This document shows, piece by piece, positions 9,080 to 36,138 of a stretch of DNA of 64,000 nt. The stretch is from Bryum argenteum (Eukaryota > Streptophyta > Bryopsida > Bryales > Bryaceae). Positions within the stretch are counted from its first letter, which is position 1. Each line of letters starts with the position of its first letter. The notes beneath the pieces are model-generated. The model did no database searches, was not told where the DNA came from, and was given only the letters and a program-made list of their open reading frames with translations. The stretch is taken from positions 21,108,758-21,172,757 of the forward strand of contig CM073323.1 of the NCBI GenBank assembly GCA_037043015.1. Direction: 5' to 3'. The position numbers were made by a program, and so were the translations under genes.

Positions 9080-9089
9080 CAAACACATG
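9080..9089 (+). repeat. Left target-site duplication candidate (CAAACACATG)
   Basis: CAAACACATG here is repeated in the same orientation at 25,799-25,808. The copies sit 13 and 12 bp outside the two arms of a 30-bp perfect inverted repeat. Ten base pairs fits the 8-11 bp duplication made by Mutator-like transposases. A chance match of this length within such short flanks is unlikely, but it was found by inspection after the inverted repeat was noticed. Confidence 0.5.
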
Positions 9090-9102
9090 GGGGAATGCAC
9101 GG

Positions 9103-9132
9103 GTGTGAGCGGAGAGCGGTGAGCGGTGAGCG
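9103..9132 (+). repeat. Left terminal inverted repeat, GAGCGG-rich
   Basis: Thirty bases reading inward, beginning GTGTGAGCGGAGAGCGG and followed by GTGAGCGG repeats, match the right arm exactly in reverse complement. Just inside, GGTGATTGGCAGAATTTT resembles GGTGAATTGGTATTTT inside the right arm, so similarity extends imperfectly inward. Confidence 0.6.
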
Positions 9133-9663
9133 GTGATTGGCAGAATTTTTTTTTTTCATGAAAGATGAAGACCCTATTACCACTCATTGCAAAAAAAATA
9201 TAAAAGTTAATAGCCCTATTACCATGAAATGGGTGGTACTGAATTTTTGAAATGGTCGTTTTTAGGAAAAAAAAACAACCCAACACCGTGGATATAGGTC
9301 CTTTATCAATTTATTTTTATGGTACTGAGGTTATACAATATTTCATAAATTATCCACATTTGCAAGTTTAGATAAAAGTTTATTAAATTATAGGCTGGCA
9401 TCATCATGTCTAACCAATACAATTAAAATCATATACAAAATGTAAACCATAATTTGGGATGGCCCTTTAGGTAATCAATAAGTTAAATTTATCAATATTA
9501 AGATTTAGAGACTAATTAGGGCTGACGTCATCAATTTCCTATTACACCTGTCAGAATTATAGGTAGATGCTTCTGTTCATATAATCTGAAAATTATAACT
9601 ACAGGTCGTCTTCCTGTGTCACCTTGTAAGGTGTACAGAAAGACATTCACGTGGCATTGTAGT

Positions 9664-9688
9664 GGTCCGAGTTCGATTCTCCTCGGCC
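9664..9688 (+). repeat. tRNA T-arm-like (B-box) sequence, possible SINE remnant
   Basis: GGTCCGAGTTCGATTCTCC has the form of a Pol III B box (GGTTCGANTCC) with flanking complementary bases as in a tRNA T arm. No complete cloverleaf is visible. A tRNA-derived SINE fragment is the likeliest reading; chance is possible. Confidence 0.25.
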
Positions 9689-10157
9689 TCGTTTGAGCGT
9701 TGCACCGCGTCCTAAAGCAGCTATCCTGAGCTATACAATTACGGGACTATAGCCCCTACCGAGATTGGCAAGCTTCAATCACTCCCATGGAAAATAATAA
9801 AAACCTTCTGAAACTTTTAGGCTGCATTGGGTTTAAAACTTAAACACTTACATACATCGACTGATAGAAATTAAAGTTGAAGAAGTTACATCAAAATTAG
9901 GGCTGACGTAACCGTTAAAGGCGTTTTTGTTGTTTTGCTCTTAACCCTTTTGGGCCGAGCCTGCCAAATTCGGTCGATTTGTGAGGACCTAGGGGAATAC
10001 AAATTGAAATTTTTTGAATACAAATTTCCGACTTATAAAAATATAAAACCGTGTATATTGAAAAACAAATATAGATAGTATATAAGTAATAGATCATGGA
10101 AAACTTCGAATGTATGGAGCTACCATGTCCAGTACCTATCGGAAAACAAATCACACA

Positions 10158-13100
10158 CTAGGTAGACGGTGTAGTACCATTAAAGTGCTGATCACACTGA
10201 TCTGCCTCAAAGTCTATAAACTTAAGTACACTCTTGCTATAACGTCGACGTGGAGTGTCAGACAAAATGGGAGATGGAGCTTGAACAAACTCTTGAACAA
10301 GACGCTCAGCGTACGATGGTAGGGTGAATTTCGATGGAGGGCTCTTGTAGAGATGAGCGTTGCGAGTCAATCGCTCTTTTAGACCTGCGATCCTAAAATT
10401 GCAAAGAAAGTCAGTTTTGCCGATTTGAAAGTGTGTAATTTAAAATTGAAAAAGAGAATACAAGATGGTAATACGCACCAATGAACTTTCGTGGTTTCTT
10501 CACGACCGGTTCATCGTAGTCATAGTCTCATTGGGGCGATTCCCCACTTTCCTCATCACCGGGAGGTCCGTTCTTGTAATCCGCAAGTACACCATCAAAG
10601 ATCTCTTCGTCGGGTTCCATAGCGATGAGGTGTCGGTTGGAGCGCGCAAGCAATCACGAGATGCACCTACAAAATCGGAAGCCCACGTTAAAAATGCGAA
10701 ATGTAGAAACAAATTATAATGTAGAGTCTACGGAAACTTTACTCGATTTCTGCGCTCCAAATCGAAGACTATACCCCCTCGTCCAGTGAGACAATCGACG
10801 AAACATTGAATGAAGGAAGGGTCCTTCTCTCGTGAGCCTCGCCACGGCGTATCGTCCGGACGATATCGCAAGGTTTCTTTCTCTCGCAGTTACAGAGGTG
10901 TGGTCTTCCTCATCGTGTGCGATTGACACACCCGCATATGCGTGTGCGACTTGCCGAGTTTGGAACTTCGAAACAAACTCTTTGCGAACATACACTTTGA
11001 TATGGAAGCAGTAAGTCTGCAAAACACAAGTATAGATACATTAATATAGCTGCAAAGAAGGCAATTATCATGAGTTGCGAAATTGATAATTAGATTCTGA
11101 TCCGTACCTCTTTCGGCTTAGGTATGGTAGATGCCATAGGAAGGGGATTATATCCCCACCAGTCTCGAACAAGACGAAAACTATATGTATGGGACTCGGC
11201 ATCGAGAGTACGCTCGATTCTCCGACATTTTGGATGCATCAGAAGAATGGCTCCAACGTCTGTCAAATGATACGCGGCAAACACGAAGAGGCTCTCGAAG
11301 TAGGTTTTGTCACGCCGGTTCCAAGATGGAATTTCTGTTGGAGACACCCCCGGTACAGGCAAGTTCTCGGGAGCATCTGCAAAAATGAGATCAATTCCTG
11401 GATGCTTGGGTTCATACTCCATCGCCGAACACGGGTACTTACGGTCTTTTCCAATCTGAGAAAGAAGTTAAAAAATTAGATCAGGGCTAGTAGATTTACA
11501 AGTATAAAACGTAATGAGGGAGATTATGAATGACAAATGTAAGAGAAAATACCTTCTTGATGTGCTCAACGATATCTAGGATTTGCGAATCCCATTTTGC
11601 GATCTTCGATGATCGTGAACCAAATCTCCAATGTTCCCTTCTCCGGATACATTGGCGAGTGACTGCTTTTTTAAACGACGAGCCGCTAGCATTGTGATTG
11701 GGTTTGAAGTGGGCGTCTGGCGAATGTTGGGTGGCTCATGCGACGAGGCGATCTAACTGCGAGGTGTGGTCAACAGTGAATGATTGAGGAGGCGACCCCG
11801 CATTCGTAAGTGCACTGTAGAAAAGTCGAGTCAATCTTGCACGACGTCGAATTGTATTGTTTGCGGCTCCCGCCGGAAGCCTCGAGTGAGATCGGCATCT
11901 TCCGCCCCGCAATGTCTTCTCGAGAGGGGAGCATTTTCTTCGGATTTTTGCTCGGGGTCTATAACAAAGCTCCATAAATCGCGTTAAGTCGCTTCCTGTT
12001 TGCACGGGACACAGGCACCGCAATCGTGAAGAAGGAGAAGAAATTGGATCAAAGCGATAAAAATGGAGAGGTCGTCATCGTCATCGCTCGTCAATGTCCA
12101 TCGGTGCGAGGCACCGGGTTAGAAGCGAGGTTCCGGTAGATGCTTCTCCTCCTTGTGCACGTAATTGTCGCCGCACTCGAGGAACCATCCACCGTCGTCA
12201 ATTGGGAGTTAGTAAACCGCTCTTGTTGGGTCATTGAAAAAAAGCTGGAGGTCATTCGTGACCGAAATGTCCTCGAACTCCATTGGAATGGAGAACGAAG
12301 CTAATGCTCCTTCGCAACGAGCTCTTGTTTTAAGTATCTACAAAAATGTGAACAAATTAGATTGTGAACATTGAACACGTTGTACCGATTTTATTATTAT
12401 TGAATACAAAACTAGAAACATACCGGAATAAAAGCCGCTTAATTGCAACTTTGCCCCGTTAATCTTTTGAAGATCCGAGCCTTTGATGAACTTTGGGCTT
12501 GCATTAGGACCAAGATAGTCATGAATGCCTTGTCCCATAAGAGCAATCTCCACTTCTCCACATACTCAGATGGCTTTAGGACAACACTTGACCACTCAAT
12601 GTTGAGATTTTCGTTGTCAATCAGGTTCTGCAACTCACTCTGAAGTGATTGCTCAAGCTGTGAAAAAAGAAAACATGTTTAATATCAGAATCATGTTAAT
12701 AATGTTAATGATGTATATACCATATGAAACTTTAACAACACCTAACGATAATTTATGATACCTGTGCCCAAAGAGATGCGCGATGCAGAAATGCCACCAG
12801 ATATTTATCTTTCATTGGACGTTCATCTGGGAAGCGAAAAGATTGTCGCACATCGTCTGATGAGTTCCACCATTGGAGCCACTTTCCCTTGAAATCGCAA
12901 TGAACATTGGTAGTGGCCACCATTTGTAAGCGATCGATTGTCATATCGGGTTTCAGGTTCTTGCTGTAATGAGAATAAATCTGCACATGAAATACAGAAG
13001 TAAGAATCAAGTCAGAAATCTTGATTACAAATAAAGTCATGTGAAAAGTGAAAGGGGTGCATTTTCTACCTCCTTCGCAAATACTTTCCCAAGTTTATGG

Positions 13101-14452
13101 TTTGCTACAGCGACCATCTTGTCGAAGTTTTTGCCGCGAATGGCCTTAATTTCTGCTTTGATCGCATTGTCCATCGCACTCCATACTCCGGGTCCTGTTT
13201 GTTTCTCCTTTGGGACTGTGGCGTAATAATTCGTCTCAGCGTCATCAGAAGCCTTTGCTAATCTCCTCTGTACATAACATAAGTATAATTAATAAAGTGC
13301 CAAAAACCAAATACAAGGAATCACAATACGAACCCATTCCACTCTACTTACCGCATATAGGAATTTTACGAAAACGTCAATCGTTACAGGATACCAAGTA
13401 TCTTTTTTGGCTTTCGCGTTCTTGCATATTCGGTAATCCTCTGGGGTTATCAGATCCTTGAAATCCTCAAGTTTCAGTTTCCCGAACTTCCTCATACGCT
13501 GCAGTTTTGCACACAACCCGTCTTCGACATGGTCATGTTCAGTTGACCTGTAGAGCGAAATCAAACATCAGAAACAGTGAAGATACTCAAAATAGAAATG
13601 TAGCGATTAGAAAATTCAGTCAATTACTCACCAATTTATGTCGTTCATAGCGTCAAGAAGGAGGTTGCTCTCTCCTCGTGCATCAAGTACGATACAGTCC
13701 ACGGAGATGTGCCACGAAGGTTCCATCTTATGGTATCTCTCAATGTGACGCATCCACGCCGTAAGACGGTGGTTTCCCTCGTAGACGTAAAAGTACTTAT
13801 CGCTCAAGTGTTGAAGATCCGGATCAGATAGCAACGTCTTCTCAAACTCTTCATTTGTTGATTTCCATAGTGGATTCGTCCACACTGCATCACCGGCGTC
13901 AACCATTTTCTCCCTCCCTTTTCTATCGAAGGGAGAAACGTACATGACCCGGTCTCCTTCGCGGTAGCCTTTGTTGAACTCATTCTCCAATTTTCGTACA
14001 TCTTGTTCGGAGATAGGTCGAACCTTGGGATAACAAACAAGACGACACAATGGAATTAGCATGCGAGACTTTTTCACAGGTTTGTATCGCAACCTGTTGA
14101 TAATGGCAATTGAATCACTCTTGTGAATCATTCGCATCTCATTTGCACTCCAGTCGGGATCTTTGTTTTGAAGATGAGGGGGCATGTGAACAATCCCGAC
14201 GTTCACACTTCCCGGCAATGGAGTGCCTTCATCTTCAGAATGAGAGTCGCCTTCATCAGCATCGTGCTGGGGTTGAGGTAGACAGTCAGTTTCCACTGGC
14301 GTTTCCTTCGGCACTTCGTTGCCCACATCTATAGCACTTCTGCCACTGTCATGTAAGCGTTCATTATCATCAAGAGATCGAGATGGTGAAGATTGAAGAG
14401 GAGTCGGTGTGGCCTCCTCATCTTGCACGGATTGGACTTGAACTATGTTCAT
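10158..14452 (-). pseudogene. ParB-like domain fused to a beta-class DNA amino-methyltransferase
   Basis: Leftward multi-exon gene. Clean exons with canonical splice sites and matching phases: 14,452-13,632; 13,547-13,352; 13,267-13,070; 12,980-12,762; 12,657-12,424; later exons about 12,330-11,730, ending at 11,553, then 11,455-11,108; 11,016-10,743; 10,666-10,479; 10,384-10,158 (stop TAG). Exon 1 holds Y-E-G-N-H-R-L-T-A-W (about 13,755-13,790), matching the G-x-H-R core of ParB/sulfiredoxin-like domains. Exon 11,455-11,108 has D-L-I-F-A-D-A-P-E-N, aligned with the catalytic DPPY motif but degenerate. The 11,016 exon encodes D-C-L-T-G-R-G-G (about 10,770-10,800), like the SAM-binding F-x-G-x-G, followed across a splice by an A-M-E-P-D-like acidic end. 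Catalytic motif before SAM motif is the beta-class order of N6-A/N4-C DNA methylases; ParB-methylase fusions are known in phages and bacteria. From about 12,550 onward there are several frame changes and about six in-frame TAA/TGA stops, so this copy is probably inactive. Confidence 0.6.
13632..14452 (-). other. ParB/sulfiredoxin-like coding exon, intact
   Basis: This 821-bp exon is the best-preserved part of the leftward gene. It starts at ATG (14,452) directly after an acceptor (TTTGTATTGTCAG) and ends at TTG|GTGAGT. The first ~110 residues are acidic and Pro/Ser/Thr-rich, probably disordered. Then come R-P-I-S-E-Q-D-V-R-K-L (helix entering a ParB fold), V-M-Y-V-S-P-F-D, and the G-N-H-R signature with a following W-M-R-H-I helix. 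Because the ATG abuts a splice acceptor, it may be an internal methionine with translation starting further upstream. Confidence 0.6.
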
Positions 14453-14590
14453 CTGACAATACAAACAAAAATACAACAGGGCACAAAAAGAATAAGAACA
14501 TATCAAAATGACAATGAGATAAAGGAAGTACTTTAAAATCTTTTTATAATGAAGTATATGATAAACATATCATATAAGCGATGGATACAA

Positions 14591-17500
14591 TTAAGGAGAC
14601 CGCAACTTCGCGGCAAGTCGCGGAGAACGTCTGGGGGCAAGTTTAGCTAATTCTTTTTCTTGAATACGACGACGTTTTGCCTCATTCATTTTAATACGCT
14701 TGTTAACAGAGTGTGCAACCCTATCAACGAAAACACGTGAAGTGTGACGGACAGGTGAGGCAGGGGGCGGAGTTTCGGGAACCGAAGACAATGCCACTTC
14801 TAAACGACGAGATTCCACTACAGTCATAACATGAACCCTCAAAGCAGGTAAATCGCTGTCGGCATCAGATTCCTCTTCAGGATCAACTCCATGTCGCTTT
14901 GACGGATCCTGCAATACAAGTCATTATCACAAGCACACGATTAATCAAATACTTTACAACGCCAAATAACTTAAGAACCAAATTAATCTTTATATAATGA
15001 TCATTCATGTGCACATCAGGACACATCCTAACCGTAACAGAAAAAGAATAAATTAGTAAGGTAGTTGATTAGTTTGTGGAAAAAATAGGACCACGTCCAC
15101 ATCATAATCACTCGGATCCCAAAAAACCCACCAACACATCCACGAGGACCAGCTGAACTTCCACAGGATCAGATTCCCTCTCCAACACGAGGTAGATCAT
15201 CGGGACGACCACCAAATGACGGTTAGATGGACCAGAGTCTCAAATTCGTGACAAAGCATGAAGTCAAGTTGGCAAAAAAATCAAACCAACACGACGGAGA
15301 GGACGAGCCTGTCCATCACATAGTTCACGATCCCAGCCTGCGGCACTCAGCGACATCCGAGCATGGATCGGCACACCACCAGAGGATCAGATCCCCTCTA
15401 TAAATTCCCTAGCATCGGCACGACCCAGCAGCGACGGAAAGATGGACAAGAAGTCCCGAATTCGTGACAAATAAGAAATTGAAGTTAGCGTAATTCAAGA
15501 ATCAAACAATACCCCGTCAGACCTTCGTGGACGAAAGTCTGGAAGGCAGGCAAAAATTTCATGAAAAAAAATAATTTACGTCAACCCCTGCAGGCAAAAA
15601 ATCTAAACCAACACGACGGACAGCAAGAGCCTGTCACGGAGTTCAGGAACCCAGCTCGCGGCCTTAACAGACATCAAAGGATGGAATCAACACAACCACC
15701 AGAGGATATGTTCCCCTCTTCAACATGAAGTAGATCATCAGGACGAGCGTAGCGAGGGAATGATAGACAAGAAGTCTTAAACTCGTTACAAAGCATAAAT
15801 TCAAGTACGCAAGAAGTGGAATCGAGCGGTCACCCCTCCAGACCTTCGTGGACGAAAGTCTGGAAGGTAGCAAAAAAATTTAGGAAAAAAACAAATATCA
15901 CGTCCACCCATGCAGGCAAAAACAAAATCCAACACCACAAAGACGACGAGCCTGTCCATCACGGAGATCGTGAACCAAGCCGGCTCTAACAAACATCCGA
16001 GCATGGATCGGCACACCACCGAGCTCGAGATCCTCTCTCCAAACACGTTGTTGATTATCGGGACGCCCACAATGACGGATTGAACATGGACTAGAACTCT
16101 CTAATTCTTGACCAAAACACATTTCATGTTAGCGAAAAAGGGAATCGAAGCGTCTCTCCGCCTGGACCTTCGTGGACGAAAGTCCGGAAGGTAGCCAAAA
16201 ATTTGTGGAAAATAGCTCTAGTCAACCCCTGCAGCAAAACATAAAAACCAACACGACCCATCTTTAGGAGCCTGCCATGGAGTTGACACACCCAGCTCGG
16301 GGCCCTCAGACATCCGAGCACGGAATCAACACAGCAGTAGAGGATCTGATCCCCTCTCCAACAAGAGGTAGAACATCAGGAAGAGCGTAGCGAGGGAATG
16401 ATGGACAAGAAGTTTCAAACTCGTTACAAAACATAAATTCAAGTACGCAAGAAGTGAAATCGATCGGTCACCCCTCCAGACCTTCGTGGACGAAAGTCTG
16501 GAAGGTAGCAAAAAAATTAAGGAAAGAAAGTTCACGTCAAACACAGCAGGCAGAACTTAAAAACCAACACGACATATCTCCAGGAGCCTGCCATGGAGAT
16601 TACACACCCAGCTTGCGGCCCTCAGATATCCGAGCATGGAATCAACACACCAGTAGAGGATCTGATGCCCTCTCCGACACGAGGTAGAACATCAGGACGA
16701 CCTTAGCCAAAGAAAATTGGACCAGAAGTCCCAGCTCGTGACAAAACATGAATTCAAGTTAGCAATAAGGGGAATCGACCGTCACCCCTCCAGACCTTCG
16801 TGGACGAAAGTCTGGAAGGTAGCAAAAAAACTTTTGGGAGAAAATACTTTAACGTTTACCCCTGCAGGCCAAAAATAAAATCCAACACGACGAGGAGGAC
16901 GAGCCTGTCCATCACGGAGTTCAGGACCCCAGCGCGCGGCCCTCTCAGACATCCGAGCATGGATCAACACACCGACAGAGGATCCGATTCCCTCTCCGAC
17001 CACGAGATATATGATCGGCACGACCCACAGTGACTGATTGGACATGACTAGAAGTCTCAAATTGGTGACCAATAACAAATTCAAGTTAGCGAATTGGGGA
17101 ATCGAGCGGCACTCAGCCAGACCTTCGTGGACGAAAGTCTGGAAGCTAGCCAAAAAGTCTGGGAAAAAAAGTTCACGTCAACCACAGCAGGGAAAACATA
17201 AAAATCAACACGACGGAGAGGTCGAGCCTGTCCATCACAGACTTCACGAATCGAGCCTGCGGCCCTCACCGAACATCCGAGCACGTAATCAACTCATCTT
17301 CAGAGGATCAGATCTCCACTTTAAACCCGAGGTACAGCAACTGCACGACTTAGCAGCGACGGAAAGATGGTCTAGAAGTCATGAATTCGTGACAAATTAT
17401 AAATTCAAGTTATGAGAATGGAGGAATCGGACATCACCCGTCAAACCTTCGTGGACGAAAGTCTGGAATGTAGCAAGAAAATTTAGGGAACAAAAGATCA

Positions 17501-20500
17501 AAACCAACACGACGTAGAGCAAGAGCCTGTCACAGAGTTCACGAAGTCAGCTCGCGGCCCTCACAGACAACCGAGCATGGATCGGCACACCACCAGGATC
17601 GGCACCCTCTCCAATCACGAGGTAGATCATTGGGACGACTTACGCTCTACATGAGTAGAAGTCCCAAATTCGTGACAAATCACAAATTCAAGTTTGCACT
17701 AAGGGGAATCGAGCGTCACCCCTCCAGACCTTCGTGGACGAAAGTCTGGAAGGTAGCCAAAAAATTTGGGGAAAGAAGTTCTAGTCAACCACTGCAGGCA
17801 AAACATAAAAACCAACACGACCCATCTTCAGGAGCCATCCATGTAGTTTACACACCCAGCTCGCGGTCCGAGGTAGTTCAACAGGATGCCGTAGCTAAAG
17901 AAAGTTGGACCAGAACTCCCAGCTCGTGACAAAACATAAATTCAAGTTAGCAATAAAGGGGAATCGACCGTCACCCCTCCAGACCTTCGTGGACGAAAGT
18001 CTGGAAGGTAGCACAAATACTTTTGGGAGAAAATACTTTAACGTCCACCCCTGCAGGCCAAAAATAAAATCCAACACGACGAAGAGGACGAGCCTGTCCA
18101 TCACGGAGTTCAGGACCCCAGCTCGCCGCCCTGACAGACATCCGAGCCTGAATCGGCACAGCACCAGAGGATCGGATTTCCTCTCCGAACACGAGATTGA
18201 TCACCGAGACGACCCACAGCGACGGATTGATCATGACTAGAAGTCTCAAATTGGTTACCAATGACAAATTCAAGTTAGCGAATTGGGGAATCAAGTGGCA
18301 CCCCGCCAGACCTTCGTGGACGAAAGTCTGGAAGCTAGCCAAAAACACAGCAGGAAAAACATAAAAACCAACACGACGGAGAGGTCGAGCCTGTCCATCC
18401 CAGAGTTCAGGAATCGAGCCTGCGGCCCTCACCGACACCCGTGCCGAGGAATCAACCCGGAGTTCAGGAACCCAGCCTGCGGCCCTCACAGACATCCGAG
18501 CATGGAATCGGCACTCCACCAGAGGATCTGATCCCCTCTCGAACACGAAGAACATCATCAGGACGATCAGCAGCGACGCAAAGAGGGACCGGATTCCGCA
18601 TTCCGTGACAAATCAAAAAGTCAACTTAGCAAAGTTTACAAACCAACACGACAGAGAGGTTGAGCCTGTCCATTTCGGAGACTCATGAACCAAACAACGG
18701 CCCTTACCGACATCCGAGCCGAGGACCAGCAGAACCACATGAGAATCACATCCCCTCTCCAACACGATGTAGATCATCAGGACGACCCACCCGGGAAAGA
18801 TCATGGTCCAGAAGTCCCAAATTTGAGTCAAATCATACATTCATGTTAGCAAGCAAGACAAATCTAAACCCTAAATTCTCCCCCTGCTTCTATTCAAGAT
18901 TCCAGTTAGTCACAGCACCTACGAACTGACACACAATACCCAGTTAGCTAAGAAGCGGTTTCAGTGCATGATGAGGAAGGTGGTACTAACCTTCAAGGCC
19001 CTCGAGAACCACGCCTCCTTCTCTGCACGAGTCTTCATTTTTGCTAAAGAACTGTACTGAAGTGCGTATTCCCTGTAAAACTCAGAAAACAGGCTTGACT
19101 CTGAATCAGAACTCACATTCTCCAACTCCTTCTCGATGTTCTCCCCTTCTCGCTGCAATGTGATCTCCTCTTCTCGCCGCATTGTGATCTCCTCTTCAAC
19201 GCCCAAGTTTGCCATTGTAGATCCTTCCTTCAAACCAAACTGAACATTGACAAGAAATGAGTCTTTCATAGGAGCAGGTAGGCCAAATTAGTTCATCGTA
19301 AGCATCTTCACTAATTACATCCTGTCTATTCTGGTAGCTACAATCCAAATTGACACTCTTTGTGTCAGACATCTCTTCTGACAGCTTTTCAAAATTGTCC
19401 CTTGCCAAGCTTATCTGAGCATCTTTTTAAGTTTCTAGGGTTTGGCGCCGCCCCACAAAGGAGGAAATCCCGCTTCTGAACTATCCCAGGATCATTTGCC
19501 GATGGTGCCGGCATCACCTGCTTATCCCAACTACGCGCCGCAGAGGAGGACAGCGGACAGGGCGGAAGCGGGCTCAGATGGAAAGAGGACAGAGGAAGCA
19601 GATAAGACACCGCATTCCTGCAGTCACGGCATCGAGCCGGGCATCTCGGAGGTAAAGGCATCAAGGCGGGCATCAATACGGGCATCTTCGCGGTCAGGGT
19701 ATCAAGCCGGGCATCACCACGATCGAGGTATCACTGCGAGCAGTGCAATGCGGGGACGGTAGGGCTTCGTCGGTGCTAGGCTGCGTCGTGTAGAGGGCAG
19801 GGCTTTGTCGAGGTTGAGGGCAGGGCTTCGTCGGGGTACAGGGCAGGGCTACGTCGAGGTAGAGGGCAGGGGTTCGTCGGGGTAGAGGGCAGGGCATCGT
19901 CGGGGTAGAGGGCAGGGCTTCGTCGGGGTAGAGGGCAGGGCTCCAAACCCCGATACCCCAATATGACGTTGCTGCCTAGGCCGGGAATTATTACCCTGAT
20001 CTTAATGCGCTAATGCTTAATACCAGGCTCGAGAGGCTTTATACCTTGCTCTTGGGGCTTTACACCCTGCACTTTCTGGACCAGGGTATCCTACGCCGAT
20101 GATTTCTACCCCGATACCTTTCAATAATTTATATTCTCATAGTGGACCTCTTTTATTCATGGGATTTTACACTTGTACCGAATTCAAAACTGACATAGTA
20201 TAATAAATATCAAAACCAACCAAAGATATATTTAACATTACGTCACAATTTTCTCTCTAAAGCAATACTTAATTGATATCTACATTGGTGTACTTTGCAA
20301 GCATAATCACATATCTAATCTATGGAGGTGAATGCTAAAATGTGCCCAGACTCCTTCATGACACTTAAGAAAAACGTCATGTCATTTACCTCCTCCTCTA
20401 AAATACGATTTGTAGTAGCTTCATCTTCTTCAACATCTACCAACTTCTTTTTCTGGTCCAGCCGTTCCACGCTTTCAGAACAGTCTTTAAAATCTTTCTC

Positions 20501-21036
20501 CGTATCGTCAAAACTTAAATCATCTACCTCATCTTCCTTGAGACCTTTGTCGGCATCACCCTAGTACACAAACTTTCAATTCATTAAACTCAAACTGCAA
20601 TAATTTAATAGCAAAAACTCAAGATTAGTTACGACCGTACCTGCTTCTCGAATTGTTGCGCAACCTCGTCACCTCCTAAGTAATAACATAGAGATTCGCT
20701 AGATGTGGATCCACCTCCACCGCGCTCCTGCTCTTCTATATATCTCTTGTATTCGTTCCCATCTTCAGCACTGTCTTTCTCGTTGATCTCAATCACAGTG
20801 TCAAGATTGATTGACCGCATTTTGAGATTCCGCCTATACTGGGGCCCGACTTCATCATCGTTCAGATCATAATCAGCAGGGCCTCCCTCATCTCCACTCG
20901 ACCTAGACGCACCCGCCTTTCGCAATGCACTACGTTTGCGCGCTTTCGTATTACTAAAACGGGTACTCCCTCTCTTCTTCTTCTTCTTCGGCACACTCTC
21001 ATTCGATCTCTCAGACCCCATGCTCACCGCGTCCAT
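14591..21036 (-). CDS. Charged, coiled-coil-like protein, five exons, unknown function
   Basis: Five exons, all joined in phase 0 with canonical sites: 21,036-20,641; 20,560-20,390; 19,414-19,319; 19,239-18,991; 14,908-14,591 (stop TAA). The ATG at 21,036 gives M-D-A-V-S-M-G-S-E-R. The product is about 380 residues. Features: a Lys-rich tract (K-K-K-K-K-R) and R/K-rich N-terminus that suggest nuclear entry, two acidic Asp/Glu-rich stretches, an E-E-E-I-T-M-R-R repeat with coiled-coil character, and a C-terminal basic tail R-R-S-P-R-L-A-A-K resembling an AT-hook/chromatin-type motif. I do not recognise the family. It diverges from the transposase across 504 bp. The last intron is 4.1 kb and made of tandem repeats. 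The next leftward exon begins only 138 bp beyond the stop right after a strong acceptor, so this gene and the ParB-methyltransferase may be, or once have been, one transcription unit. Confidence 0.5.
15130..18860 (+). repeat. Intronic tandem array, ~320-bp units, about ten copies
   Basis: Units of about 255-327 bp share AACCAACACGACGGAGAGG, GAGCCTGTCCATCACGGAG, GACATCCGAGCATGGA and a 26-bp hairpin core CCAGACCTTCGTGGACGAAA followed by GTCTGG. The hairpin starts at 15,517, 15,838, 16,162, 16,476, 16,790, 17,117, 17,441, 17,724, 17,979 and 18,306. The first and last units lack it. The array lies wholly within the predicted 14,909-18,990 intron. No coding frame is conserved across units, so I read it as a satellite-type expansion; a structured non-coding role is possible. 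Confidence 0.75.
19760..19945 (+). repeat. GC-rich minisatellite, ~24-bp units
   Basis: About seven tandem units of AGGGCAGGGCTTCGTCGGGG type with small variants. A looser GGGCATC-rich repeat stretch lies just before it (19,600-19,740). Both sit in the intron between the second and third exons of the leftward charged gene. The long frames across this stretch are artefacts of the repeat. Confidence 0.7.
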
Positions 21037-21540
21037 AAGGTCCAGACTCTAGAACACAGATCAAACCGTCTCAATACCTTACCAACACCAACTAAACGAA
21101 CAAAGGAAAGGAACATCTCATCGTCCTACTCCTATTTAAGCAAGGTTTACAAGCCGCCCCCTGACCTAATTCGCGCACTTGATCATAAATAATCGCAACA
21201 ACTATGACGGTTCATGGTCTGCCGTATGTGTCAATCTCTGACATAGGATGCTAATCTATTTTTTGAATTTGCATACAAATGCTCTGACAGTGACGGCCGC
21301 CGTCACTTTTCCAATTTTGAGATTGTCAGCACTTGCACATTAATGATACTAAATACAATTGCCTAATGGTATACAGTATTTACTCTCCATTATGGTAATT
21401 TTTTGATTTATTCACTCTCTTAACCTCGTTTACTTCATTTCGAGTTCGTGCTACCAATTTTCTCTTATAAACTGCATCATTCATAGTCTGCTTCCTTTTC
21501 TCACATCCACTGTCGATGCTCGTTGGTCCTCTCGCACATC
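21037..21540. promoter_or_regulatory. Divergent promoter region between cargo and transposase
   Basis: These 504 bp separate the ATG of the leftward charged gene (21,036) from the ATG of the rightward transposase (21,541). No coding frame is present. A GTGACGGCCGCCGTCAC palindrome lies at about 21,290-21,307 and could bind a dimeric factor. No firm TATA box is assigned on either strand. Shared control of the two transcription units is inferred from position. Confidence 0.4.
21291..21307. promoter_or_regulatory. Palindrome GTGACGGCCGCCGTCAC
   Basis: A GTGACGGC/GCCGTCAC inverted repeat stands out in an otherwise AT-rich intergenic region, midway between two divergent starts. This is the form of a dimer-binding site. 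Function is inferred from symmetry and position only. Confidence 0.35.
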
Positions 21541-24500
21541 ATGGCTTCCTCCTCCTCTGAACCCACTGCTGCAGACATCGTTGAGATTGTGTCACAGGGA
21601 GCACTTGTTCCCATTTGCATGTTCGTAGGGCTTGAAGGTGTCGTAGAGATCACTACATCGTGGCTGGGAATTCGATTCGGCTACGATGCATCTTCCATGT
21701 GGTTAGAGAGAGAAGTTCTAGAACCTGATACTAATCATGTTCAGTACTCCATGGTCGTAGATCCAATCATACTAGAGAATAATACTACAATCTGGAAGCT
21801 TAGAGCTGGAAAGTATCGCCTCTACGGCTTGACGGAGTCCGTCATGAACGCGTCAACTGTTCTCCTCACCCCACGTAGTTCTTCTACTATCTCCACGGTT
21901 GCTCCAACTCTTACTCGTGTCAAAGTCGAACCGGGTCTGGAAGTCACCATAGACATATCAGATTCATCAGAAGACGAGAAGAAGTCTCCTCTGCAGCAAT
22001 GTCGTCCGTCGTCTCATATTCCATTGCCACCTTCTACTAGGGATAACTATCTAAGAGCAACCCCTCCTACTTTAATTTCCTCAGATATTGTAAAACCCAA
22101 AAAAATTCTTCCATCCCTCTGCAATCTCGCTAGTATGCCCAGTAGCAAGACTCTCCTCAAAAAAATTGATTTCAAAACCATCCGCACTGTCAACGTAACT
22201 TTCTTGCCTCCGTCATTCAATGGCGATGTTCTCTTCATCTTTCCACCTACTCTTCCGTCTGCAACTCACAAGGTCGCGAAGTCCATGGAGGGGATGGATA
22301 AACGTTACGACGGTCATGTGTGGACGAGGACAATGACTACCAACATAAGCAACACCCAAGGGTTATCTTTCCGATACTCGAATTGTGTAGGTCATCTACA
22401 GTGCCACAACCCAAACTGCGACTTCTTGCAACGCCCTGATCGAGTCGCTGGAGTGAACGACGTGGAGTTTGAAGGCATCACCAAAGACCCCTTCCCAGTA
22501 GGAGGATCGCCCCCACCCACCTCTACGTTGGTCTGTAAGCTTTGCAAAGATCCTCCAGTTTGTGTTGCGCCTTGTTCTGCAAAGATCTTTTACGTAGTTG
22601 GAGATGATTGTCAAGAGCGTGCATGTGTCCATATAGGAACGCACAAACACCCTGTCAAAGTTGGAGATTATAGATGTGTAAGAAAACAAATAGATGAGTT
22701 ACTAGAAGAGCATGTTGACCGTAACCCTCAAGCAACCGTTTCCAAAATAGTTATGGAAACCAGCAAAGACTTGTTAGGTAACTTACTTCTCCGTGACGAA
22801 GGTGACCCCGAAACCGACAATCTTTCTCTTCAGCAGCTGGAACCAGTCTTCGAACAATGCAAAGAGTTAAACTCTCCCAGCATGCGCAATCGTATCTACA
22901 CTTTCAAGTACTTGCGTAGATATGGCATTCTCGATGGGATCACAAAGCTCGGAGGTCTCAAAGAATCGGGCATATATGTGCAACGCAACATGTTCCCCGC
23001 CAAGGCGACGAATCGGAGAAAGTCTTCATCTTTAAGATGTCCGAGGTCGGCCCCGGTAGCGGTGTTGATCTCGTTCGCCGTATGCAGCCTGGAGGAAACC
23101 TCTCCCACGCATGGATGATGTTTGACTATGTCAAACGCGTTACGGATTGGACCACCATGGCCTGCCACGTGTACGACTCACGTTACCAACGCATTCTAAC
23201 CATTGCATGCTGTGATTTCCAATCAGAAGACAAAGATGCTCAACTAGTCTTCTGGAAGAACCTTAATCATGTGATGGCCAGGAACGGAGTACCCAAGCCG
23301 CAGTTCCAAGGATTTATGGCTGATAGTGCTCAAGCCAATTGGAACGTTGTACGCATCATCTACGGCTCTGGAAACCCTGCTGTCCCCATGGAAGGCCGCG
23401 AACGCACATGTTATTTCCATTGGACGCAGTCTCTTGAAAAACATACGAAACAATACATTGTGCCCGAATTGCAAGGACAACACCGGATTCTCTGTAAGCA
23501 GTACAAGGATGCGCGCACCATGGAAGAGGCTGAGACTCGATATTGGGCTATAAGAGCATGGTGGGCATCCTCGAAGGCCACCTCCGAAGTGGGTTTAGAA
23601 CACTTGGGTCATTGGCTTGCGTACTGGCACTTCAGATACAGACAATGGGGTGGATTTATGGAACTAGTAAGTGTACTATTTCTTTGCGATATTTTTGCTG
23701 ATTTCATGGTTTGTGGTAGCTTATGTAATGTTATGTCAGTACCAAGGAAATTAACAGTTCTTGTTTATAGAGTATCAGTTGATTTTTATGTGGATTTATA
23801 TACTGTGAATATGAATTTAGTTCAATTTTAAATTATGAATAAAGGCCTAATACGTTTGCACATTGCAGGAAAAAAAATATTCGGCAGAAGAACTCGCAGA
23901 GATGCCTTCTTGTAATCTTGCGGAGTCAATCCATAACAAGTGGCTGCAAGCGTCTGGCAATAAGGGTAGAGATCTCTACGTCGCAACGGTTGACGATTAC
24001 GTTTGGGCCTTCCTCCAAGTGGTTGGCTACCATCAATTTAACAAAGGCGGAGCAAGTGGTTCTGGACCATCCGTAGAAGAACTTCGTCAACGTCTTTATA
24101 CCGCTCAACGTCGTGCAAATCGATCCGGCAATCCATCTTGCCTCAACAAGGCAGTTATGGACTTCCCTGAAGCAGAAGCTTACTGTACGCGTGATGCCCA
24201 CTTGGAGGGGGCAGAGATCTTTGGTTCCAGGAAACGTAAGGCTGATGTTCCCATTGGTGCTGAAGATGAAACTCATCGACCTGACACCGTGAGTTACTCA
24301 CGTCCTCGTATAGGGAGAAGAGTCACACGAGCTCTTGCTGAGAATCTCAGTCCTATCCACGAAGAAGATGAAGTTCAGGAGCAACCGCTGGAACCCCCCG
24401 CTTCCCCAAGACCCAGTATTCAGCACGTCATTACTATCCAAGAGACGAGAGTGAATGAGCGTTTATGGCACATTGCTCGTTTGAAGGAATCTTCATCCAA

Positions 24501-25317
24501 GGCTTGTTGGGGTATTATGGCTAAGACCAGGAAGAAATGCGAATCACGCATTGTCCAGAACGGAAAGGCGACCGCAGCTCCAACTTACACCGGAGTATGG
24601 CAACGTCCTCAAGAGGGACCCAAAAAAACTGATCAGTTTTTCTTTTGTCCAGACGACATTGAGCGTTGTGTAAAAGGCAGTCGTCGTAAATGGATTGAGC
24701 CGTTCTCTCGGAAACAAGGACGACCGCCTATCCCCTCTGTTTGGCCCGTGAATATTGGGACCAATCTGACAGTGGACGAAATAGAGGCGTTGGAGAATGC
24801 TGGTTTTCGGCTCCCACAAAAGGAGCGCCTTCCTCTCAACCGCACATTCAATACTTCTGCGCCACCGAGAGACTTGTCACATATTCCTGTGCCGGACAGG
24901 GCTGATGTGTACCCAAAATCACGCAAGTCCAAAGTTCTTCGACGCATCAAGGCTGTGACTTCAAAGCACATGAAGAACATTGACTCAGCTCGTGCCATGG
25001 AGGCAAAAATACTCGAGGTGACCATGATACCTCAACCTGGTTTTGGATGTATCGTTGCTTTGGAGTCGGATTCAGAGTCTATCTATAAACTATCTCTAAG
25101 TGAGAACCCTGAGTGTTCTTGCCCGGTGTTCAAAAAAACCATAACTAAGCTGGGACGAAAAGGCGAACCGTATAGACATTGCAAGCACCTATACTTCGTG
25201 TTGGTATTGGTATGCAAATTTGATATTGATAGAGACCTCTTCATCCACGCGCCCACCCCGGCCAACGAGGTGAAAACCATTCTAGAGCGGGGAATCCTAG
25301 ACCAAGTTAGAGAGTAG
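21541..25317 (+). CDS. MULE-like transposase with WRKY-GCM1-like and SWIM zinc fingers
   Basis: Start ATG at 21,541 (M-A-S-S-S-S-E-P). Two exons: up to 23,666 (donor CTA|GTAAGT), a 202-bp intron, then 23,869-25,317 in matching phase. Order: a variable N-terminus with an acidic S-D-S-S-E-D-E patch; a Cys/His cluster at about 22,390-22,660 (C-H-N-P-N-C, C-K-L-C, C-V-H-I-G-T-H-K-H) of WRKY-GCM1 type; a catalytic-core-like region with F-D-Y-V-K (about 23,120), F-M-A-D-S-A (about 23,315) and C-Y-F-H-W (about 23,410); N-L-A-E-S-I-H-N-K-W at the start of exon 2; and near the C-terminus C-S-C-P-V-F followed by H-C-K-H, the C-x-C-xn-C-x-H SWIM finger (25,110-25,190). These are the standard parts of Mutator-like transposases, which cut and paste DNA in the nucleus. 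The frame changes once near 23,000, just before the core, so the copy is either recently inactivated or carries a sequence error. Confidence 0.7.
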
Positions 25318-25756
25318 ACTACCTCAAGGTCATATTACGTAAACCAACATCCACATCTACCCATTCTACATGTTATCCCTGTAATCGTGTGTTTCACACG
25401 TAATTTATTTTGATTTCAGCGTTTTACGTAAAGTCAATAAATGTATCCCTATTTACAAAAATTTATGAACTGCTATACAACTTCGACTTCCGATTTCAAA
25501 GTTATGATATACTAGCCTACTCTGTAAAATTTGTAAATGTCTCTTAACGTTTGAAGAACGTGGTTTAAGTCTACCAAATTTCAGAAATTTTAGCCTTATC
25601 TCCACGGGTTTAGGAACACAAAACCACGGTAATAAGTCAAGTATATTCGAATATTCTTGAGAATATTCCAGAAAAAATAGTAAAATATTATTTTTAGAAA
25701 TTTTTTTGCTAAAAATACCAATTCACCGCTCAAATTCCTGAAACTTGATGGCTCAA
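25318..25756. other. 3' flank of transposase to right inverted repeat
   Basis: AT-rich, no coding frame. A GCGGTGAATTGG-type motif on the minus strand at about 25,720-25,731 is a further copy of the terminal GAGCGGTGA unit. Confidence 0.35.
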
Positions 25757-25786
25757 CGCTCACCGCTCACCGCTCTCCGCTCACAC
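25757..25786 (-). repeat. Right terminal inverted repeat, GAGCGG-rich
   Basis: Exact reverse complement of 9,103-9,132. Reading inward on the minus strand it begins GTGTGAGCGGAGAGCGG. It lies about 440 bp after the transposase stop and 12 bp inside the direct repeat CAAACACATG. Confidence 0.6.
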
Positions 25787-25798
25787 GGTAGCTACGTC

Positions 25799-25808
25799 CA
25801 AACACATG
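25799..25808 (+). repeat. Right target-site duplication candidate (CAAACACATG)
   Basis: Direct copy of 9,080-9,089; see the left copy for the argument. Confidence 0.5.
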
Positions 25809-25928: not shown

Positions 25929-26330
<402 letters not shown>

Positions 26331-28128: not shown

Positions 28129-28314
28129 TGTAAGGAGACAAGGACAAGTCTGTAGTCAATGAATAGTACGAAAAACGAGTAAGAATATAGAATGTGCAGT
28201 GGGGGACAAGGCCCCCCCACTGGCCATATATAGGCAGTTGGTGGCAGTTAATTACATGCCAAACCCAACTGTCCGCCGCCGGGCTATGGGTCCTTAGGTC
28301 CTTGTACTCGTTAC
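28129..28314 (-). repeat. 3' LTR of the 28-38 kb element
   Basis: Starts TGTAAGGAGACAAGG and ends CGTTACA on the plus strand; CAAAG duplication at 28,124-28,128. On the element strand it is preceded by a polypurine tract AGAAGGGGGGGGTAA (28,315-28,329). Confidence 0.85.
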
Positions 28315-28462
28315 ATTACCCCCCCCTTCTAGGTCCAGGTAACGGTCGGGGAGCGTTCGGATGTAAGCGGTCAAACTCGCGAACCCGAAGAGGCGCATTC
28401 CGAAGGTGGCTAGCAGGTTCCCAGGAGTCTTCCTCCGGTCCATAACCTTGCCAAGAGACCAA

Positions 28463-29851
28463 CTACTGCAGCTGCCGACGTCGTCCAGAGAGTCGGCAGT
28501 TGAGTATCCGACGAACCTCCCACTCCATGTCGCTCGCCGGAGTAATGACTGGGGGTGGGGGGTTTTGCTTCCGTCCCGGGATGGTATTGGGGCGGTACGG
28601 TTCCAGAACGGCTATGTGGAAAACATCATGAATACGGAGGGTACTGGGCAACTTGAGGCGGTATACCAAGTTTGAAAACTTGGAGATGATTCGGAAAGGC
28701 CCTAAGAACTTGGGTCCTAACTTTCTTGACGGGGACGTCGTAGCAATGTGCTCACCTTGTAGAAGGACGTAGTCACCGACTTCGTACGTAGGTGCTTCCT
28801 GGACTTGTCGGTCGTAGTATTTCTTTGCGTGTTCCCCGGCAATTTGGATCATGGTCTGGATTTCTTCCTGCACTTGATGTAGCAACTGCACGCGCTCCTC
28901 CGCTGCTGGAACCATTGAGGTTGTTGGTGGGGTAAATGACAGAGTCGGGTGATAACCGTAAGTTGCATAGAACAGGGAGTACCCAGTAGCGGAATGGAGT
29001 GAGTTGTTGTAGGCGAATTCTGCTACCGGGAGGAGGTCAGCCCAATCATCCTGGCGTTTTGTTGGAAACTAACGAAGAATCTGCTCCAGATGTTGATTGA
29101 CCCTTTCGGTCTGGCCATCGGAGTGGGGGTGAAACGCTGTAGTTGGAACCGGTTGAATGCGCAGAAGCTCATACAGTCGACGCATAAATTTTGACACGAA
29201 AACTGACCCGCGATCGGAGATCACTTCCGTAGGAGTCCCGTGAAGCTTCCAAACGTGTTGTAAATAGAGTGCTGCGATCCCTGCTGAGTCAGTGGCTTCT
29301 GTAGTTGGAATAAAATGTGCCAACTTGGTATTCTTGTCCACCACCACCATGATCGTGTCAAAACCAGCGTTGAGTGGAAGCTTCACTATAAAGTCTGTAG
29401 TCACCTTTTTCCACGGGGCACCTCCCGCAGAAATAGGTTGCAGCAACCCATAGCGGGGATGTCGAGTCGACTTGGAGCGCTGACAAATGTCGCAGCCGTC
29501 CACGTAGCGATGAACATACTTAGTAAGGGTCGGCCAGTAAAACGTACGGGAGACCAAATCCACCGTCTTTGCCCGTCCCAGGTGTCCCGCCGCTGGGGCA
29601 TCATGGCGGGATCGAAGGATTTGTCGACGGAGCTCCTCGTCGTTTGGGACCATCATTGCGTCTTTGAAGAAAATTACTCCATCACGAAGTGAATAATCAT
29701 GTAGTTGACGTCGTATATGACTGGGGGCCTCCCCCACTCCAGTCATCAAAAATGTACGTACCGGCGTCAACGTAGGGTCCAGCGCGGTCGCTTCTTGGAG
29801 TCGTTGTATAATACGGCTGTCGTTCCAAACTAGCTCCACGGCCTCCAGCAT
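28463..29851 (-). pseudogene. Ty3 integrase region with chromodomain-like tail (fossil)
   Basis: The upper part shows the H-H-C-C zinc-binding head (G-H-L-G-R ... C-D-I-C-Q) and the catalytic-core landmarks T-D-F-I-V-K-L-P and I-S-D-R-G-S-V-F. The lower part ends in a G-P-F-R-I region followed by a W-E-V-R-R-I-L start typical of a chromodomain-like tail. This enzyme would insert the element's cDNA into chromosomes. It is part of a broken element. Confidence 0.75.
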
Positions 29852-29857
29852 TGCTAA

Positions 29858-31150
29858 TCAAAGCAGCGGCCGTACGTTCCGACTACTGTCATTATCTGTA
29901 TCGAAACGGCGGGAGAGCATGTCCGCCCGTGCATTAAGCACTCTAGGTCGATGCTCGATAACAAAATCATATGAGGAGAGGAATTCTGACCACCGTGCTT
30001 GACGGCGGTTGAGAATCTTGGTTGTCAGGAACTGTTCCAAGTTCTTGTGATCAGAGATTACTCGAATCTGATGGGGAGATCCTTCAAAGTACACCCGCCA
30101 ATCCTGGAATGCGAGTACGATGCTAAGAAGTTCTTTGTCGTATATATCGTAGTTTTGCTCCGCAGCAGACATCTTGGAACTACGATACGCACATGGATGT
30201 AACTGGCCGTCAGGTCCATACTGGGAGAGTATACCACCAGTGGCGGTATCTGAAGCGTCCGTCTCAACTACAAACGGATGATCGAAAACCGGATGTAGTA
30301 GGATCGGGGCTTCTGTGAATCTCCGACGGAGTTCATTGAAAGCTTTTTCCGCCTCTGTAGACCACGTGAACGGTTGATGCTTTCGCGTCAGCTGAATGAG
30401 GGGTACGGCTACATGAGAGTAATCCGCAATAAATCTCCTGTAGAAATTGGCGAAGCCCAAAAACGCTTGTACCTCCCGAAGGTTCTTGGGGCGTGGCCAG
30501 TCTTTGAGGGCGGATACCTTGTCAGGGCACATCTCCAGACCGCGGCCAGAAACAATTAAGCCTAGAAATTCCACGGAAGGACGGTGGAACTCACACTTGG
30601 ATAGCTTGGCATAGAGGCCGTGCTGATGAAGACGTCGTAGTACTTCCCGAACAACTTGACGGTGTTCCTCAAGTGTCTTGGAGAAAATGAGAATATCGTC
30701 CAAGTAGATCACAACGGAAATGTCGAGTAAATCCCCAAATATTGTCTGCACATGGGCCTGAAACTGGGCCGGGGCGTTCGTGAGGCCAAAAGGCATAGCG
30801 AGGTACTCGTAAAGGCCATAACGTGTCTTAAACGTTGTCTTATACTCATGTCCCGCCGCCATTCGCACTCGATGGTAGGCCTGTCGAACGTCAAGTTTAG
30901 AAAAGATAGTGGCTCCAACTAGCCGGTCCGTCAACTCTAGGATGAGAGGAAGCGGGTATCTGTTCCGAATTGTAACCTGGTTAAGGTTCCGGTAATCAAT
31001 GCAGACTCAGAGGGTCCCGTCTTTCTTTTTTGCGAACACAATCGGGGCCGACACCGGCGATTGAGACCGCCGAATCCAGCCCTTCCCCAAGTGTTCATCC
31101 AAGTAGCGCCGCAGCTCCTCCAACTCCGCAGGCGACATAGGTTGTAGTCC
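29858..31150 (-). pseudogene. Ty3 reverse transcriptase and RNase H (fossil)
   Basis: Y-L-D-D-I-L-I-F-S is the polymerase active-site box, preceded by L-A-M-P-F-G-L-T-N-A-P. Downstream, E-T-D-A-S-D-T-A-T-G-G and Y-D-I-Y-D-K-E-L-L mark RNase H. The sequence class is Ty3/Gypsy. It copied element RNA to DNA and degraded the RNA strand. The copy is part of a broken element. Confidence 0.8.
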
Positions 31151-31162
31151 CATATTACGAGG

Positions 31163-31771
31163 TTACTGGCCGTCTTTGAATTCTATCTTCATGTCCGAGG
31201 GACCGTGAATGGAGAACTCGTTGGATGCCTCTTCACTGAAAGCGCCCTCCAAGTCAATGTATTCCGGTGGGATCGTTGTGGTGGCAGGCGGTACCTCCTC
31301 TGACACTTCAGAAATTTCCATCATATATATCTCGACCCCCTTGGTGGCTTGTCGGAACGTTGGCTGGGACACTAAAATGTGTCGGCTGGAAAGCGAACAA
31401 GACCCCTTGCAGAGGGCTGTGTTCGGTCGTTCCATAGCTTTGCCGTGGGAAATGCAATGAGCTTGACAATAAGCAGAACTGAACTGTACAGCCCCTGTGG
31501 CCCAACGAATATCCGGGTTGTGGCGAGATAGCCACGGAGTCCCGAGAATACAGTCATACCAGCCGGTGTTCGTAAGATCCGCCGTAAGAGTCTCGATGTG
31601 GTTGTTGATCACCAACTTGAATGTCTCTTCATGTGTTATCAGCCCGGTATTGATGACCCGTCCATCTATCACCCGTACCTCCCGAGGTATCGCTTTGACT
31701 TTAATGGTGGCTCTGCTGGAGGCGGCAAAAGTTGGATGGACAAAGACACCGGTTGCCCCTGAGTCCACCAT
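31163..31771 (-). pseudogene. Ty3 aspartic protease region (fossil)
   Basis: V-D-S-G-A-T-G-V-F is the D-S/T-G active site of a retropepsin-like protease, followed by I-L-G-T-P-W-L. It would have processed the Gag-Pol polyprotein. It sits between the gag zinc knuckle and reverse transcriptase, as expected. Confidence 0.7.
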
Positions 31772-31945
31772 TAAGGTAGCGGGCCGACCATTGGCGAGAT
31801 CCCGCCAACGTTAAGTGAGTACTGGGATCGGTGGTGGCACGGAGGTACAGTGGCCCTCCCTCCAAGACACTTGTCGCCACTGTTGCTTGTTTATAGGTCA
31901 TGGTCCTCGCTGTTTGCGGTGGGCCCGGGCACTGAGCAGAGGATG

Positions 31946-33070
31946 TCAGTCCCGGGCCGTGTCTTTTCCCGGGCTCGCAGAATCCGCTTCCGACGTGGTA
32001 GAGAACGATAATGGTCTGGAAGGATTTGTCGGGCACCTCGCACGAGGGTGGCCCAATTGTCCACAGCCCCAACACTTCCCTTGACGTTGATACTCCAGTC
32101 GTTGGGCTGGGGTCTTAGCCATTGCCGTGGATTTGCGAGGAACGGGTCCAAATGCATCTAACTCCATGGGAACAGGACCCGGAGAGGGGGAAGGTCCCAG
32201 AAACCTCCGCCCCTGGTGAGCCGGCGCAAAGGTGGGCCGTCCTGCTTGCTTACGCAACGCCCAGATCCGCTCGTCTATTCGCGAAGCCCGCGCCATCCAT
32301 CCTTGGAGCGTCGTTGGGGGCTCGTCCCCGGTAGCCACCGAGTAGAGGATGTCATTTTTTAGGCCGTGACGGAATCTCGAAATAAGGGCTTCCTCGCACC
32401 AGTTGACTTGAGACGCCAGCTCACTGAAAGTTGCGATATAGGCAGCTGCTACGCCTGCCGTTTGTCGCAGCTCTTGTAAGCGATCTTGGGCATTTCCTTT
32501 GCGGTCGATCTCCCCGAAAACAGAGACAATCGCGTCGCAAAAAGCGTCGTATGACTCCAGCAGTGGATGACTCTAGCGTTTCTCCAGGGCTTGACAGATA
32601 GGCATCGCCCACCCTTGTGCCGCTCCGGTCAGGTAGGAGAGAGCGCAGTTGATCTTCTGGCGCTCCGTCCTATAGCCCTCTGGGTCAGCCTCAAACTGTA
32701 AGCGGAGTTGGGCTATCTATCGATACACTTCTCCTCCTTTCTTGCCTGCAAAGTCCTTAGGCCGAGCTACTCGTCCGGCCTTGGTGGGGGGTGCATTTCT
32801 CCCCAATGCTCCTCCACTTGGGGCCGGGGCGGGGGCCAAAAATAGTTGGACATTCCGTTCTCCTGACTCTTGAGTTCGATACTCCTGAATGATCATGGGG
32901 ATGGCCGCATGTAATCCGGATTGTAGTTGTTGTTGAAGACTCGTCTGCATCTGCTGAAGCTGCTGCTGGAGATAGGCTGTCCAATCGCCTCCTGAAGTGG
33001 CTGCTGCTGCTTGGTCCTGAACCGTCCCCCCGCTGTGCTCCATGTACTTTGCCTTTGACCCCTCTTCCAA
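31946..33070 (-). pseudogene. Ty3 gag region with CCHC knuckle (fossil)
   Basis: The N-terminal part has a Gln-rich coiled stretch (L-Q-Q-Q-L-Q-Q-M-Q). The C-terminal part contains C-W-G-C-G-Q-L-G-H-P-R-A-R-C-P, a CCHC nucleic-acid-binding knuckle. The region is fragmented. Confidence 0.65.
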
Positions 33071-33360
33071 AAATTTCCTAGAGTACCGGCCACTTTACGC
33101 GACCTAGGTGCTAGAGCGTCGGAATTGCATGTGGTGGAGAATTATCCGTAATTGGCTACCTTGGTTTGTATGCACACTTGATTCCTTCTCTACCTGGGTA
33201 ACTTCAAACGTCAAGGGTAATCCATGGGAGTTGACAAAACGTCTCGGTCCCACCGTCGTTGGGTCAATCTTTCCCCAGCTCATGGATCTGTCCTTGAATT
33301 AGGTCGCGGACCAATTTTTTGGAGCCCTTTGCCTCGTAATGAATGGTTGTGAGCATCCTA

Positions 33361-36130: not shown

Positions 36131-36138
36131 AGGTGCAG

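Follow-up and report, generated by a model that had tools for sequence, protein, structure and literature searches.

A 64,000-nucleotide stretch of the Bryum argenteum genome (the window) holds a block in which a transposase gene and two oppositely directed genes, one of them ParB- and methyltransferase-like, lie between repeated ends, and it raises the question of whether this block moves as one unit and what a ParB-like protein would do inside it. Read directly, the window carries CAAACACATG at positions 9080–9089 and again at 25799–25808, which the initial annotation had taken as a 10-bp direct repeat at both outer edges. The family termini obtained by comparing copies (left GGGGAATGCACGG..., right ...GGTAGCTACGTCC) fix the ends, so that the element spans 9090–25799 (16,710 bp, unstranded), as judged by these termini, the duplication and the stop of homology at the ends, and the duplication is the 9-bp AAACACATG, located at 9081–9089 on the left and at 25800–25808 on the right (both on the + strand, read directly and compared between copies). 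The direct repeat is thus present, but its length is 9 rather than 10 bp: the leading C of the right-hand CAAACACATG is the last base of the element, and its agreement with a C in the left flank is fortuitous. A perfect 30-bp inverted repeat was found as described just inside the edges, with its left arm at 9103–9132 (+ strand) and its right arm at 25757–25786 (− strand), each 13 bp inside the corresponding end; the outermost 13 bp at the two ends are not inverted copies of one another.

The genome (258.8 Mb, 25 contigs) was searched with a left-end query of 421 bases, and the best 40 of 519 first-look candidates were scored. With the element edge at query base 11, matches start at bases 8–13 in 38 of 40 rows other than the window, and at bases 5 and 26 in the remaining two; homology crossing the proposed ends was thus not seen in those 38 of 40 left-end rows, which stop at the edge. 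Among the matches listed, these rows are 90–96% identical, one short fragment excepted. For the right end the best 40 of 617 candidates were scored, about 20 left/right pairings were made by eye, and eight with ends within about 24 kb (copies A–H, 14.1–23.6 kb long) were fetched, a few more pairings near 23–25 kb being left out of the fetched set. Nine of 10 copies carry a 9-bp duplication of their own, namely the window copy (W), B–H and a copy on contig C7 examined at its two ends (L007 and L010) only; copy B shows a slip of one or two bases at its right end. Comparison of the junctions of copy A gave no matching duplication at its ends, and this copy may be rearranged. The flanks of copies H and D were each joined around one duplication and searched against the genome, and both tests (2/2) returned uninterrupted target sites: the joined H flanks align over the whole junction at dozens of places (for example 178 query over 178 genome bases, 96%), as do the joined D flanks (for example 158/158 bases, 95%), and we read these places as empty sites in repeated DNA. 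Because copies bear specific duplications and such empty sites exist, transposition is demonstrated, and the window block represents an old member of a family of large cut-and-paste DNA transposons. The proposal that the block moves as one unit is accordingly borne out by the copies with the same termini and different duplications (9/10), by the uninterrupted targets of H and D, and by a gene order kept in 8/8 copies. In the copies examined the end repeats were found bounding large elements and not as isolated minisatellites, and no other outcome that the initial annotation had named as refuting turned up in the material inspected.

Each of the eight further copies contains, in an unchanged order, DNA that matches the ParB/methylase gene, the divergent region at the center and the transposase, so that the main genes recur together. 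Their directions are as the initial annotation had read them, the transposase pointing right (21541–25317) and two genes pointing left (14452–10158 and 21036–14591), and in the window two divergent ATGs, of the second gene and of the transposase region, lie 505 bp apart. Five of these copies (C, D, E, G and H) also match the exon of the second gene near 19000, and A, B and F do not. Genome matches were scored for the ParB exon (best 141 of 1227 candidates), methylase exon 7 (best 150 of 990) and the transposase (best 93 of 1327). On contig C1 at least 43 of the 70 listed ParB matches have a same-strand methylase-exon match within 6 kb and, in the reverse direction, at least 43 of 84 listed methylase-exon matches are paired with ParB; a divergent ParB match lies no more than 40 kb behind at least 17 of the 35 listed transposase matches on this contig, and a same-strand one behind 3. 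C1 makes up 17% of the genome yet holds 70 of the 141 scored ParB and 84 of the 150 scored methylase-exon matches; it is possibly a sex chromosome or an otherwise repeat-rich chromosome. Protein relatives number 38 for the transposase (36–71% identical), 24 for the ParB exon and 8 for the methylase. A viral origin was also considered and set aside: neither the ParB exon nor the transposase had a confirmed relative in viral contigs, and a tblastn search of phage records with the ParB exon gave no match.

The transposase gene (21541–25317, + strand) has at least two exons by reading frame, and in the window copy the frame is broken between about 22900 and 23120. Near its end a SWIM-like CSC...CKH motif occurs in 9/9 copies, one of them with an internal stop. 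Among the matches listed, the transposases form at least two subfamilies, 78–100% and 68–71% identical to that of the window. Pfam gave nothing useful on single window ORFs and no SWIM hit for the transposase, and no MULE profile match was obtained in 21 members of the transposase family. A genome scan with PF10551 returned 74 matches, 53 of them marked over cut-off (one only with its neighbours), and none lay within 12 kb of the transposase at the 93 listed places; ordinary MULEs (PF10551) are thus also present in this genome. Missing one profile does not exclude membership of a family. The description of the transposase as MULE-like may hold: it draws on the 9-bp duplication and the SWIM-like CxC...CxH motif, and PF10551 does not recognize the protein. 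By duplication length and zinc-finger-like motif the transposase appears Mutator-like, with membership of Mutator itself not established.

The first of the leftward genes (10158–14452, − strand; 10 exons in a gene model built over nine copies) would encode a ParB/methyltransferase-like fusion, with a ParB-fold domain in exon 1 (14452–13632) and methylase-like motifs in exons 7–9; the window copy is decayed, being frameshifted in the methylase half. Structure prediction followed by Foldseek gives a ParB/sulfiredoxin fold at the N-terminus, with every E-value above 0.001 and with sulfiredoxin, of the same fold, as the top match by E-value; a sequence search of the PDB with the ParB part found none. 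The CTP-binding motif GxxR is present as GNHR in 18 of the 20 rows covering the region, and the two rows that lack the R include one in-genome copy (L060). The C-terminus resembles N6/N4 DNA methylases, in profile matches that are sub-threshold and consistent in direction. For PF01555 the best E-value is 0.0023 and 4/9 members match, the first with 16.4 bits against a cut-off of 26.7, so that the whole-protein score stays below the curated cut-off. Motifs IV and I are ordered as in DpnA; motif IV in the form DPPY/F/W is absent, and its place is taken by DAP, DVP or DTP in the rows that cover the motif, 7 of 9. A PDB search with a single methylase sequence found none, and the predicted structure of this half is uninterpretable (pLDDT 39). 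Since every relative seen has a degenerate motif IV, the methylase-like domain may bind rather than catalyze. Of the DNA-methylating cargo that had been proposed, a weak N6/N4 methylase likeness is thus retained, but methylation itself is doubtful. Ka/Ks values of 0.06–0.18 over exons 2–8 (6 of 9 copies) show that the fusion gene is under purifying selection. Synonymous divergence is about 0.8 in exons 2–5 and lower, at 0.22–0.26, in exons 6–8, a difference suggestive of sequence exchange between copies, by gene conversion or recombination, within the methylase half.

The second leftward gene (14591–21036, − strand) has about four exons, judged by eye from conserved exon sequence and splice signals, and a large intron; its four exon frames match no Pfam family over cut-off. 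Inside this intron lies a tandem array of approximately 316-bp units, about 70% alike (15332–17500, unstranded, with related units on to about 18400), and with it the 26-bp palindrome CCAGACCTTCGTGGACGAAAGTCTGG, which together with close variants occurs ten times (15517–18331, unstranded) and is a candidate docking site. A palindrome near CTTKCGTNNACGMAAG is kept in 12/12 copies, more weakly in D and E, and mostly in tandem arrays whose units are unrelated, at roughly 0.5–11 kb upstream of the ParB start and with a length of 16–26 bp. Its form varies, being TCAGCCTTGCGTCCACGCAAGGCTGA in A, CCAGACTTGCGTCGACGCAAGTCTGG in B, F and G, CCAGACTTTCGTGGACGAAAGTCTGA in C and AGCATTTCGTCGACGAAAGGCT in H. 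By one criterion, fixed after the variants had been seen, the site counts are 10 in W, 6 in A, 2 in B, 6 in C, 0 in D, 0 in E, 2 in F, 2 in G and 36 in H, and 2 in each of the partly read copies L059, L060 and L061; D and E have one weaker site each, and the other 10 of the 12 copies have at least two and up to 36. First-order Markov resamplings (30 per copy) give an expectation of 0–0.1 sites per copy. Genome-wide, CTTKCGTNNACGMAAG occurs at 1050 places versus 2 for the pattern read backwards, and a looser pattern at 1270 versus 93 for its control. Outside the element, the remaining 47 kb of the window have no such palindrome. That it might belong to the terminal repeats was ruled out, since element ends together with their flanks, 127,723 bases in all, contain a single site. 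In copy A (L040) the right junction falls at the exact center of a B-type palindrome, the next bases being GACGCAAGTCTGG, and we read it as a putative insertion or recombination within another element's array.

Our preferred reading, to which we assign a probability of roughly 55%, is that the palindromes are putative parS-like sites on which the ParB-like protein of the same element docks, and through which the element would mark or regulate its own copies. A ParB–parS-like pair is suggested because a ParB fold with GxxR is combined with clustered 16-bp palindromes near the gene that differ between subfamilies, and CTTGCGTCGACGCAAG, CTTTCGTGGACGAAAG and TGCGGCACCGCAAG may be considered candidate binding sequences. 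Alternatively, the arrays could be neutral minisatellites in which the palindrome acts as a seed for repeat expansion, for example as a hairpin at replication. Such an origin would fit unit lengths that differ between copies at the same place (308 bp in A, 424 in B, 393 in C, 170 in G and about 190 in H, next to the 316 of the window) and the expansion of one lineage with approximately 424-bp spacing into long C2 arrays. We nevertheless hold it to be improbable, for the palindrome is what the copies share while the units are replaced, it covaries with its center left free, and copies D, E and F have it where no tandem array was detected around it. The long approximately 424-bp-spaced arrays on C2 (about 28.26–28.28 Mb and 34.55–34.63 Mb, one of them near the contig end) carry a one-armed variant of the palindrome and are probably expanded element-derived satellite DNA. 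Such asymmetric variants occur at 219 places, and 98 of the 100 listed are on C2, mostly at this spacing.

Returning to the sites as docking sequences, their arms pair in 89.4% of cells over eleven different sites, versus 23–41% for slid partners, a percentage inflated by the choice of these sites as palindromes; the stronger part of the evidence is that 5 of the 12 pairs have changed on both sides. With arms of 12 pairs the palindromes could also fold as RNA hairpins in the intron of the second gene. This explanation seems to us very improbable, for the conserved pairs run up to two central bases, which is too tight for an RNA loop, and the sites, intronic as they are, vary in number. A second subfamily, known from one region (L062, 1351 bases, ParB 73% identical), contains no CGTNNACG in those 1351 bases; a script found six GCG[GA]NNCCGC sites in it, three of them TGCGGNNCCGCAAG, sites of the GCGGCACCGC type were seen by eye, and they escaped a palindrome finder set to 9-bp arms. 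Beside the center, T-A has here become G-C, which would leave a 2-nt hairpin loop and so favors a duplex site over the hairpin seed of the minisatellite explanation. TGCGGNNCCGCAAG occurs 262 + 348 = 610 times in the genome versus 3 + 3 = 6 for the control, and one ParB gene on C2 is preceded by 18 sites of this subfamily, at upstream distances of 0.7–3.5 kb. Some isolated symmetric TGCGGNNCCGCAAG sites, at least two, are each about equally far from a transposase match and could be coding.

A site 0.3–5 kb upstream was found for 3/8 ParB matches with the first pattern and for 3/72 with the second, and in the same listed ranges no exact site lies downstream of ParB matches. These low fractions imply that the exact patterns cover only some lineages and that sites vary between lineages. 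The palindromes might instead be operators or enhancers for the transposase, the second gene or a host factor, and so control transcription that starts in the central region, with the ParB-like protein acting elsewhere. Sites within an intron of the second gene and upstream of the ParB start would suit this explanation, as would symmetric covariation, which suits any dimeric binder; but placement is tied to the ParB start (6 matches upstream versus 0 downstream in the listed ranges), and subfamilies with different ParB also have different site sequences. The transposase also differs between them (68–71% versus 78–100%), so that co-divergence does not single out ParB, and the transposase as binder is the main rival to the ParB-like protein. 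We regard a role as operators or enhancers as unlikely, though worth keeping in mind. For docking by the ParB-like protein, which we continue to prefer, the asymmetric variants, the 93 control matches of the looser pattern, the low upstream fractions, the uninterpretable methylase model, the two rows without the R of GxxR and the Foldseek E-values above 0.001 count on the other side.

Mechanistically, the ParB-like protein would, as a symmetric dimer, load on the palindromes as bacterial ParB does on parS, would then spread over or cluster the element DNA, and would thereby recruit the methylase-like domain there. In this way the element's own copies would be marked or regulated, most likely with a bearing on expression or on evasion of silencing. 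Segregation of the bacterial type is unlikely because no ParA-like partner was recognized among the element's three genes. The initial annotation had suggested that the cargo might help mark, protect or segregate the element, and the palindromes that covary and precede the ParB gene, which that annotation did not report, offer the suggested role a concrete candidate site. More tentatively, and with appreciably less confidence than in the docking sites themselves, we propose that eukaryotic nuclear transposons may carry complete ParB–parS-like pairs, in which a ParB-fold CTP switch with a methylase-like domain and lineage-specific arrays would form self-recognizing chromatin, site and protein codiverging so that families recognize only themselves.

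Bacterial parS is read by an HTH domain. The Bryum element differs from bacterial ParB–parS systems in having no recognized ParA and no identified HTH, in its methylase-like fusion, in its eukaryotic host and in its many palindrome variants; shared with them, as far as the available part of the source describes, are the ParB N-domain fold, GxxR and clustered 16-bp palindromes near the gene (PMC12207404). In MULEs, according to the portion of the survey at hand, duplications are 8–11 bp, a SWIM-type zinc finger occurs in many groups and an antisense extra gene in several (PMC6446971). The 9-bp duplication of the Bryum element falls within that 8–11 range, whereas PF10551 fails on its transposase, the copies read are 14–24 kb long and a ParB/methylase cargo is not listed for MULE groups in the same portion (PMC6446971). 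KDZ and other fungal transposons with TET/JBP genes likewise have a DNA-modification gene on a DNA transposon, a dioxygenase there and ParB/methylase here, as the accessible text has it (PMC12730594).

Green- and red-algal cases of ParB-methyltransferase transposons are reportedly described in Iyer 2011 and Petroll 2025. Sola elements make 4-bp duplications. The transposase of Sola1-1_Ec32 is probably different from that of the Bryum element, which has a 9-bp duplication and a SWIM-like motif. Sola1-1_Ec32, a 21.5-kb element of Ectocarpus, encodes a 1104-aa protein, ParB-like and N4/N6 methyltransferase, opposite its transposase; the available sections of the paper suggest a self-marking role for this protein and cite green- and red-algal cases (PMC12477816). 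Both are therefore giant DNA transposons with a ParB-like/methyltransferase gene opposite the transposase, and those sections mention no palindrome arrays (PMC12477816). On this partial text, ParB-methyltransferase genes in eukaryotic transposons are already known (PMC12477816). Beyond the Ectocarpus paper (PMC12477816), the entries listed from the open-licence literature yielded no palindrome arrays and no ParB in Mutator-like elements, and the word ParB is not in the accessible part of a giant-transposon review (PMC6431247). New, as far as the literature found shows, are the arrays, their covariation, the subfamily versions and carriage by a Mutator-like family with a 9-bp duplication and a SWIM-like motif. 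The algal fusions have been guessed to bind and modify their own element, with no binding site named in the available sections (PMC12477816); a candidate site with strong evolutionary support, at more than a thousand places and in two diverged versions, makes binding, specificity and marking directly testable. Should the docking reading prove true, it would mean that a partition module of bacteria has been re-created within nuclear transposons of eukaryotes.

The remainder of the window holds other repeats. About 130 bp beyond the right end of the element lies a TATGTA hexanucleotide array of about 64 units (25936–26312). Gypsy-type retrotransposon frames occupy 38891–53277 and 42335–50423. 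Two direct repeats of 300 bases, 100% identical, stand there at a distance of 14.1 kb, and further direct repeats lie inside, 6.8 kb from each other; these are apparently nested LTR elements. Finally, at 28129–37692, 155-base direct repeats (97% identical, 9.4 kb apart) enclose reverse transcriptase and integrase frames.
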